Shown here piece after piece: positions 44,465-51,156 of a stretch of DNA of 64,000 nt; positions within the stretch are counted from its first letter, which is position 1; every line of letters begins with the position of its first letter. The notes below the pieces were generated by a model. It had not been told where the DNA came from. It saw only the letters and a list, made by a program, of their open reading frames with translations, and ran no database searches. Both the position numbers and the translations under genes were made by a program. Origin of the DNA: an uncultured Clostridia bacterium (GTDB lineage: Bacteria > Bacillota > Clostridia > Oscillospirales > Ruminococcaceae); contig CANPWL010000003.1 of the NCBI GenBank assembly GCA_947584375.1, positions 1 to 64,000 on the forward strand, read 5' to 3'.

Positions 44465-44614
44465 ATGAATAGAAACATTCAAGTTACACATAATGAAAAG
44501 AAGAGAAAACTAAAATTAAGGTATAAAGTTTTGGCAATAATAATTATAGCAATACTTGTAATTTCATTTATAATATACATGCTTCAGACATCGGTTAATG
44601 ACATCATAAAGTGA
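44465..44614 (+). CDS. Single-TM small protein, 49 aa (not in ORF track)
   Basis: SD aaaggag; MNRNIQVTHNEKKRKLKLRYKVLAIIIIAILVISFIIYMLQTSVNDIIK*. Confidence 0.55.
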   Translation: MNRNIQVTHNEKKRKLKLRYKVLAIIIIAILVISFIIYMLQTSVNDIIK

Positions 44615-44702: not shown

Positions 44703-44991
44703 ACTGATTTTTCTTGTTTTTTTAGTTAACGAAATAACAATTAATTAGAAAATATATTTCAGAAAAAAATGAAGATTTAATAAATTAGAAATAAATTAGA
44801 ATGGAAAACAGGGATTTTAAAATAGTGAATAGTAAATTTACTTTACAAAATTCAAAAATAACAAATGTGTAAAGGTAAAAACCAGTTTTGGTATAAAAAG
44901 TAAAAAATATTTGTGAAAATAAATAACTATAAGGCTCAAAAACTGTGCAATTTGCACAAAAAATGAGTAGTTTTTTTTACGCAGTAAGGGC

Positions 44992-45020
44992 TTGACTTTT
45001 CAAAAATAATACTATATACT
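44992..45020 (+). promoter_or_regulatory. Strong sigma-A promoter of candidate ncRNA
   Basis: TTGACT 44992-44997, 17-bp spacer, TATACT 45015-45020. Confidence 0.7.
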
Positions 45021-45026
45021 TGTGAT

Positions 45027-45560
45027 AGTGAAGGACATGGCACAAGATATTGTGTATAACCTCACAAACCCCATAGAATTGGGCTTTGACTACATCGGAT
45101 ATGGGGAAATTTTATATAAAATAAAGAAAAAAACAGGACGACAAAACGTAAATTTGCCCATAAAAATTAGCTGATTTTGGTTGTTTCTTGACTGTTTTCA
45201 GCATTTTGCTGAATTCAATTTGGAAATTATAAAACAGATATTAATTCTTTTTGGGTAAGCTCAGACAAAGTTTGAATAGCCTTTATGCTTTCAAAAGTTG
45301 TCTGAAAGTCTTAGCTTAAATGATGCATGTTGAAGTTGTGGTTGGCTTTTACAATGCATCTTTAAGATACTTATTTGAAGAAAAATTATTTCGGGTTATT
45401 TTTCTTCAAAGCTTAGTTCCGGGTAGAAACTTTGGAGAGGGTTTCAATCGGTTCATTTTCAGTTAAGGTCGGGCTTATTTATGATTTGTACTGTTATAAG
45501 GAGAGGATTAGTAAAGCCCGATTTCTTAACTGGATGAAATTCTTTGGAGGCAATTTATTA
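45027..45560 (+). ncRNA. Candidate large structured RNA (ROOL/GOLLD/OLE size class; family unassigned)
   Basis: Non-coding, many nested helices: 45069-45075/45100-45106; 45197-45203/45207-45213; 45256-45268/45298-45318; 45322-45328/45354-45360; 45374-45386/45398-45410; 45452-45476/45514-45538. Confidence 0.65.
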
Positions 45561-45596
45561 CTTTTATTTATGTCTTTTTGAAGGAGGTCATTGGTT

Positions 45597-45728
45597 ATGG
45601 CTAAATTGTTAAATATGTTATCTGAAAGATTGCATATTGCTACTCAAGAACTTCTTGATATGTTTGCAATAAATGTTGATGCAAATGATTCTCAAACTGC
45701 GTCTGATATTAATGATACTGATGATTAA
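45597..45728 (+). CDS. 43-aa peptide downstream of the structured RNA
   Basis: SD gaaggagg 9-10 nt upstream of ATG; MAKLLNMLSERLHIATQELLDMFAINVDANDSQTASDINDTDD*. Confidence 0.6.
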   Translation: MAKLLNMLSERLHIATQELLDMFAINVDANDSQTASDINDTDD

Positions 45729-45812
45729 TTTGATGTATATTAATATATAAAGTATCTTAATCATAATTGGAATCAGCTTATAAGTTTTACATAACACATA
45801 ACACACGAATTT

Positions 45813-45837
45813 AAGGCAGGATATATCCTGTCTTTTA
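45813..45837 (+). terminator. Terminator of the ncRNA/peptide transcript
   Basis: GGCAGGATATATCCTGTCTTTT. Confidence 0.65.
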
Positions 45838-46022
45838 TTCGTTTATGGAACTGACTAAGCGGACATTTTTAAATTTATACAATTAACATAATGTGTATAC
45901 AAATGAGTTTAAGAATATGCAGCACCGGCAAATATAAAAGCGAATTGTTACATGATTTCTGATATATATTCTAAAAAATAAGAGTCAGCAGAAATTTCAA
46001 ATCGTATAATATCGTATAATAA

Positions 46023-46158: not shown

Positions 46159-46243
46159 TGGTGGAAGAGGGTGGATTCGAACCACCGAAGCGTAAAGCAA
46201 CAGATTTACAGTCTGCCCCCTTTGGCCACTCGGGAACTCTTCC
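46159..46243 (-). tRNA. tRNA-Tyr (GTA), CCA encoded
   Basis: Acceptor GGAAGAG/CTCTTCC-A-CCA, anticodon loop ctGTAaa, long variable arm. Confidence 0.93.
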
Positions 46244-46263
46244 GTATTAAATTAAGCATAAAA

Positions 46264-46339
46264 TGGAGCTGGTGGACGGACTCGAACCCCCGACCTGCTG
46301 ATTACAAATCAGCTGCTCTACCAACTGAGCTACACCAGC
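46264..46339 (-). tRNA. tRNA-Thr (TGT), CCA encoded
   Basis: Acceptor GCTGGTG, D-loop TAGCTCAGTTGGTAGAG, anticodon loop tTGTaa. Confidence 0.93.
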
Positions 46340-46502
46340 TTAAACAATGCAAAAATAATTATATCACAGTTTAGTCAAGTTGTCAAGATGTTTAAACCTC
46401 TTTTTTTACTATTAGCAATTAATTAATAAAAGTTGGAATTTGCGAAATAAAAGTCTTGCATTAAACAAAAACTAAAAGCTAACAGCTAGCGACAACAGCC
46501 AC

Positions 46503-46579
46503 TGGTCGGGATGACAGGACTTGAACCTGCGGCATCTTGGTCCCAAACCAAGCACTCTACCAAACTGAGTTACATCCCG
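46503..46579 (-). tRNA. tRNA-Pro (TGG), CCA encoded
   Basis: Acceptor CGGGATG, anticodon loop tTGGga, T-loop GGTTCAAGTCC. Confidence 0.93.
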
Positions 46580-50450: not shown

Positions 50451-50700
50451 AAAACGCCCGTCTCCGATAAAACCAGAGACGAGCGAAATACCCGTGTTAC
50501 CACTCTCATTTATGTATAGTTCACACTATACACCTCAGCCACATCTATCAATGTGTTACTCTGTAACGGGAGTTCCCGTGTGAAGCTACTTAAATTCACC
50601 ACACCTGCTCAAGGACGAGTTATAACCTTTCTCTAACGCTGACTCGCACCGACCGTCAGCTCTCTTTGCATAGAAGTAAAAGCCTTTGTTTCCTGTCAAA
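50451..50700 (-). promoter_or_regulatory. T-box leader of leuA
   Basis: Minus strand: AGAGAGctgacggtcGGTGcgagtcagc distal stem I, T-box GAGAGTGGTAACACGGG, terminator gtctctggttttatcggagac + T-run; promoter TTGACA-N17-TATACT upstream. Confidence 0.88.
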
Positions 50701-50989
50701 GCATTTTTAATATAGAAATTAAGTATAGTATATTATATATTTTATGGTTTGTCAAGCGTTTTGTCACAATTTTTTTCAAAAGATTTTTAGGGTTTATTGT
50801 AAAATGAATAGGACATAAAGAAATTACAAATCTAACGTGACATATTTGAAACGCTGAAAATAAAAAAGGCAGGAGATTTAAAATTTTTTAAAAGAATCAT
50901 ACCGTAAATCAGAAAAAATCAATGCGTATTACAAATTTTTAAAAAATACTTGACAGGATAATAATCGTATGTTATAATATGCCTTGCAT

Positions 50990-51110
50990 TCGTATCTAAA
51001 GACAGCAGGTGGCGTGTAATGCCGTAAATCCTGCCGAGGAAAGAATAGCAAAGTTTAATATGATAACTTTGTTCCTCTTTTGTCTTTTGATAAAAGAGGA
51101 TTTTTATTTA
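50990..51110 (+). promoter_or_regulatory. Ribosomal protein L10 leader
   Basis: GCAGGtggcgtgtaatgccgtaaatCCTGCcgagg followed by a cctcttttg...caaaagagg-like terminator stem, directly upstream of rplJ. Confidence 0.8.
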
Positions 51111-51156
51111 CCCTTTTATTTGATACGGAAATATATTAAAAGAGGTGAAATCTATT

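Follow-up and report, generated by a model that had tools for sequence, protein, structure and literature searches.

A candidate dual-function RNA behind an NrdR-type promoter lies in the place of nrdD-nrdG in one clade of uncultured Clostridia

RNAIII of Staphylococcus aureus, a structured RNA of several hundred nucleotides, encodes a small haemolysin peptide and blocks the ribosome-binding sites of its targets by antisense pairing. It is listed as a dual-function RNA, and VcdRP, described in the same literature, carries a protein of 29 aa (PMC8672173). Large size and dense structure are also known from ROOL and GOLLD, which are phage or prophage RNAs that often lie near tRNA islands (PMC12286853). 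NrdR, in turn, is an ATP/dATP-sensing repressor of RNR operon promoters (PMC4009431, PMC12051234) with the published box consensus acaCwAtATaTwGtg (PMC4009431), a common box spacing of 15-16 bp and ATP/dATP-dependent DNA binding (PMC12051234). The literature that we searched yielded no NrdR-controlled regulatory RNA, which is not proof of absence.

Our findings on a locus in a 64,000-nucleotide stretch of DNA (the window) from an uncultured Clostridia bacterium suggest an architecture that, by analogy, appears closest to RNAIII and other dual-function RNAs. Judged from its sequence, the locus is rather more probably than otherwise an NrdR-controlled RNA of this type, made up of a structured 5' part, a 43-aa helical protein and a 3' antisense region directed at a gene that we call Y and at coaD-X. 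Its promoter would be a kept sensor of DNA precursors, and since this comes together with structure, a 43-residue ORF and a complementary stretch, we are probably dealing with a new regulatory RNA. The original prediction of a large structured RNA with its own promoter, its own terminator and a 43-aa companion ORF is borne out as far as these parts can be read from the DNA: a sigma-A type promoter (TTGACT-N17-TATACT; plus strand, 44992-45020) matches at 10/12 positions, and an intrinsic terminator (AAGGCAGG..CCTGTCTT-TTATTCGTTT; plus strand, 45813..45842), whose stem (45813-45834) is followed by a T-run, is conserved in the alignment. Promoter and terminator together span 44992-45842 of the window and predict a transcript of ~815 nt.

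Two NrdR-type boxes can be read at the promoter. Box 2 (GCACAAGATATTGTGT; plus strand, 45040..45055) agrees with ACACWATATATWGTGT at 14/16 positions and is retained in homologues, and the degenerate box 1 (ATACTATATACTTGTG; plus strand, 45009..45024), which overlaps the -10, scores 8/9 in its left half, has its right half shifted by 1 nt and reaches 10/16 as a 16-mer. The two NrdR-type boxes are 15 bp apart, and an nrdR-type gene is found in all 15 genomes of the genus. Conserved blocks, seen when nine RNA-bearing loci are aligned, extend upstream of the promoter (plus strand, 44868..44991) and include a palindrome, TGTGCA-ATT-TGCACA (44944-44958), similar to one that precedes nrdD in sister species (TTTGTGCATATTGCACAA); judging by sequence it is a possible operator for some regulator. 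Further upstream, between asnB and the RNA promoter, lies a 49-aa predicted membrane ORF (44465-44614), a longer relative of which occupies the same place in the sisters.

A search of the genus with the promoter motif placed it at the RNA locus of nine RNA bearers and, in the five genomes without the RNA, ahead of nrdD; in the tenth RNA-bearing genome (G006) the motif at the RNA locus has diverged. The same -10 and NrdR sequence thus fronts nrdD in five sister genomes, whose NrdD proteins (771-791 aa) are 84-100% identical to the query. That NrdD is absent from all ten RNA-bearing genomes, in which the one NrdD left is a distant second protein (27-29% identity). Genome comparison shows strict mutual exclusion of the RNA and the promoter-linked nrdD, with 10 genomes against 5. 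The distant NrdD is also present in the five sisters, and G009 has further, weaker relatives; no large subunit of a class I/II RNR was found in any of the 15 genomes. As for gene order, read in four of the five sisters (G001, G002, G007, G014), reverse-oriented asnB is followed by a small ORF, the promoter and nrdD-nrdG, and in the RNA bearers by the promoter and the RNA. Since the same promoter at the same position next to asnB drives nrdD-nrdG in the sisters, and RNA bearers lack that nrdD, the RNA occupies the place of an RNR operon. In the asnB tree (14 genomes) a fully supported branch (100/100) sets all RNA bearers apart. By our reading of these sequences the swap would go back to one replacement event, and nrdDG is likely ancestral at this place, as judged within the genus.

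We also considered an origin of the RNA in nrdDG, or in the leader that precedes nrdD in the sisters, and rejected this, because BLASTN of the window region against the sister loci matches well essentially only over the promoter (45008-45055). Nor does nrdD2 appear to be a direct antisense partner, its leader showing no convincing complementarity when read by eye. In G000 this second system is arranged as nrdD2-nrdG2-dut with a divergent Crp/Fnr gene (L161, 2893-6066 and 6438-7091), and the operon region carries GTTGCATTTGCAAC-type palindromes plus a single NrdR-like box.

The structured RNA or leader of ~570 nt (plus strand, 45027..45596) has no conserved long ORF, as anticipated from the lack of a credible CDS, and is supported by fold z, alignment and covariation. 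Segment 45027-45600 folds at -160.5 kcal/mol as compared with -125.5 +/- 6.0 for dinucleotide shuffles (z -5.85), and the full transcript (45027-45844) gives z -10.25, a value based on 20 shuffles only. RNAalifold applied to ten sequences returns a consensus of 86 pairs, 12 of which keep pairing through changes on both sides. Scored on the best-conserved 234 columns, 96.6% of cells pair (30-62% in slid-structure controls), and the 13 both-sided compensatory cells exceed those of shuffled data (5.9 +/- 2.2), with 0/500 shuffles reaching that number. Because slid structures themselves give 8-9 such cells, covariation support is real but modest. Conservation is best in a core (45313-45538, plus strand) that includes a near-invariant hairpin, GAAACTTT-GGAG-AGGGTTTC (plus strand, 45426..45445; helix 4 of the covariation analysis).

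This hairpin, with 8 bp, is what the proposed GAAAC/GTTTC helix turns out to be. Two more of the helices proposed from the single sequence, the coaxial TTCAT-CAGTTAAG-TCGGGCTT / AAGCCCGA..CTTAACTG..ATGAA and GATGCAT/ATGCATC, lie within the conserved consensus fold; the one drawn with 13 bp (TTTGAAGAAAAAT) is kept in a shorter form of ~8 bp, and CCCCATA/TATGGGG is not general, its 3' arm being unconserved. We see no obvious expression-platform switch (SD or terminator) in the RNAalifold consensus, where only weak GGCUUU/GAGGUC pairing occurs.

Downstream of this domain, a Shine-Dalgarno sequence (AAGGAGGTC; plus strand, 45581-45589) precedes the 43-aa ORF (MAKLLNMLSERLHIATQELLDMFAINVDANDSQTASDINDTDD; plus strand, 45597..45728), which has this very length in 10/10 RNA-bearing genomes. 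Fourteen positions are invariant (M1, A2, S9, L12, Q17, E18, L19, L20, F23, A24, I25, N26, D40 and D42), median dN is 0.22 against a median dS of 0.98, and differences, which number 431/274/812 over the three codon positions, concentrate at third positions. From these sequences it follows that the ORF is under coding constraint; its SD is strong, and its translation is predicted. AlphaFold models a single helix over residues 2-37 (mean pLDDT 73, with lower confidence toward the C-terminus), and searches of Pfam, NCBIfam and PHROGs assigned the protein to no family.

Between ORF and terminator lies the putative 3' antisense element (TTTTACATAACACATAACACACGAATT; plus strand, 45785..45811), which is mostly unpaired in the predicted full-length fold. 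In the 3' UTR TTTTACATAACACATAACACAC is invariant in the ten RNA-bearing genomes, as is the 22-nt core of the element (10/10), and the five sisters have no such element. A 20-mer from it (TTTACATAACACATAACACA) occurs at exactly two perfect loci in each RNA-bearing genome (10/10) and at none in the sisters; in G013 the RNA-locus copy appears twice, owing to a contig break at that point. The other locus lies between coaD and a 156-aa gene, X, for which no family match above cut-off was obtained, and its orientation is opposite, so the coaD-X transcript would carry the complement. There the complement sits in the loop of a hairpin (AGCATTTT...AAAATGCT) whose stem covaries (AGTATTTT...AAAATACT and mixed forms, with C-G, U-A and U-G pairs); in the sisters, ~20 nt separate coaD from X, and no such hairpin is present. 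Predicted duplexes at X, computed for the real sequences alone, range from -29.6 to -40.9 kcal/mol. In the coaD-X loop of G010 (L208), a GTGTTAT repeat has grown to three units and is still complementary to the RNA element.

Gene Y is a third locus, at which seven genomes differ from the 20-mer by two or three mismatches; its secreted product has Big_2 and fn3 domains and may be a wall hydrolase. The Y leader reads, for example, TGTGTAATGTGTTATGTAAGGAGAGAATATG, so that the complement extends into the Shine-Dalgarno. We find TGTTATGTRAGGAG at the Y SD in 10/10 RNA-bearing genomes, and the string is present in 0/5 sisters; when SD sites were searched with the pattern TGTTATGTN{0,4}GGAG, Y was the one target that came up with TGTTATGTRAGGAG throughout the RNA clade. 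Sister Y leaders (G007, G008, G014; G001, G002) contain no such complement, which is weak evidence because the homologues are only 40-44% identical. Predicted Y duplexes (-21.8 to -30.2 kcal/mol) are more stable than the means for shuffled leaders (-8.4 to -11.6); of the 30 shuffles made for G010, however, one gave a duplex a little more stable (-26.9) than that of the natural leader (-26.0), and in the genome of the window the Y pairing is broken by two mismatches.

By DNA search, homologues of the RNA are confined to 10/15 genomes of the genus and to one clade, nine of them being 70-75% identical. With stricter filters, a covariance model of the core, run on 299 genomes that represent 126 genera of the family, found matches in three genomes, all of this genus. 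Exact-pattern scanning of genome contigs matched nine, each bearing the record title of an uncultured Clostridia 'Lapin' MAG (we read 'Lapin' as rabbit gut), and every RNA-bearing genome named in that scan is a metagenome assembly. An exact-pattern scan of viral contigs and searches of plasmids and phages found no copy. Rfam gave no family at threshold for the locus, in agreement with the earlier failure to place it in a known RNA family, and sub-threshold matches look like chance. ROOL (RF03087) matched the window neither at gathering nor at E<=10, nor any of the 15 genomes of the genus, in a run that gave no positive-control match. The analogy to ROOL and GOLLD drawn in the original prediction finds no support, given the Rfam result, the lack of phage, plasmid and viral copies and the housekeeping neighbours; ROOL membership in particular was rejected for want of a score above threshold and on an asnB neighbourhood without phage context. 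tRNA genes do lie near the locus, as had been pointed out, but they are on the opposite strand and differ between species: tRNA-Tyr/Thr/Pro (46159-46579, minus strand) in the window, tRNA-Leu(GAG) instead near most other RNA-bearing loci. Two leaders elsewhere in the window score above Rfam gathering, namely an L10 leader (50978-51114) and a T-box (50472-50708, minus strand) that precedes a gene of 554 aa.

How else might these features be read? The RNA could chiefly serve in cis, as a long leader that controls the 43-aa protein in a riboswitch-like or translational manner; the protein, perhaps acting on NrdD2 or replication, would then be the important product and the 3' element secondary. 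Such a leader would account for the strong SD and the coding constraint on the ORF as well as for leader and ORF being co-conserved on one predicted transcript. Its consensus fold, however, has no evident conserved anti-SD helix or terminator switch, and two complementary sites that are found in RNA-bearing genomes only would go unexplained, so we regard this as unlikely, if the most serious of the alternatives. We are more doubtful still that the repeated element arose by inverted duplication or serves as a DNA operator through which a single transcription factor acts on all these loci. The exact sharing of a 20-mer by two loci, a related copy at a third and the direct-repeat character would suit such an origin, and some of the repetition could go back to a common DNA-binding site or to such a duplication. 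Nevertheless, the positions taken by the element (behind the ORF and by the terminator of the RNA locus, in the covarying hairpin loop of coaD-X and at the Y SD) fit RNA better than promoter control, and the complementary orientation at both targets also argues against an operator.

That the locus makes an ornate RNA which stands alone and, like ROOL, GOLLD or OLE, builds assemblies of RNA only is an idea to which we attach very little probability. Similar size, dense structure and a tRNA gene nearby in most species speak for it; against it are the constrained ORF and the antisense element that the predicted transcript also carries, the missing Rfam match at useful score and the missing phage, plasmid or viral copies. 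That we are looking at a decaying, transcribed and functionless remnant of nrdDG is hardly credible: its place in the nrdDG slot behind the nrdDG promoter would be as expected, but there is no similarity to nrdDG beyond that promoter, and invariant blocks and coding constraint across ten species contradict decay.

We therefore return to the dual-function RNA as our preferred reading. We infer that the locus is transcribed and that NrdR binds its promoter: one ~815-nt transcript would start from the old nrdDG promoter, probably repressed by NrdR at high dATP, and NrdR would let go at low dATP, when DNA-synthesis demand is high. This transcript would consist of the ~570-nt structured 5' part, a translated 43-aa helical protein and an exposed 3' element before the terminator. 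As to pairing in the cell and the direction of regulation, we infer from complementarity that the 3' element may pair in trans with the ribosome-binding site of Y and block its translation, occlusion being suggested by where the complement is positioned. Over ~25-30 nt it may also pair with the coaD-X hairpin loop, which could change stability or expression, alter the coupling of coaD to X or provide a decoy for the RNA. Because the trans sites are conserved, this mechanism is directly testable. The fuller scenario, in which a class III RNR operon was lost, its dNTP-sensing promoter was kept and a new ornate dual-function RNA arose under it to control a secreted protein and a coenzyme-A-linked transcript by antisense, is one we put forward tentatively and at somewhat less than even confidence. 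If true, it would be the first NrdR-controlled regulatory RNA and would mean that a sensor of DNA building blocks acts on a regulatory RNA instead of on the reductase. Promoter capture, here a swap of operon and RNA under a promoter that was kept, with a single genus still showing both arrangements, may then be a route to new large RNAs.

With regard to known systems, the small ORF expected of a dual-function RNA is conserved at 43 aa in 10/10 genomes with dN well below dS, and conserved trans complementary sites with predicted pairing are present at coaD-X and the Y SD (10/10). Likeness to RNAIII lies in the combination, predicted here from sequence, of a structured RNA, a small helical protein and antisense pairing at a ribosome-binding site. 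Unlike RNAIII, to which the locus has no Rfam match, the ORF lies toward the 3' end and is followed by the antisense element, and control would be NrdR-type rather than by Agr, with different predicted targets. SgrS/SgrT, SR1/SR1P and VcdRP similarly combine a base-pairing RNA and a small protein on one transcript (PMC8672173); what sets our locus apart is the 570-nt structured domain before the ORF, the RNR-type promoter and the restriction to one clade. ROOL, GOLLD and OLE resemble it in size and dense structure, and ROOL and GOLLD in tRNA proximity too, but the locus lacks an Rfam match, was not found on phages, codes for protein and has a 3' antisense element. Finally, the RNA promoter resembles those of the NrdR regulon (nrdAB, nrdHIEF and nrdDG promoters) in the consensus match of box 2 and in the 15-bp spacing to a degenerate box 1; known examples drive RNR genes, whereas here the predicted output is an RNA in the slot of nrdDG.
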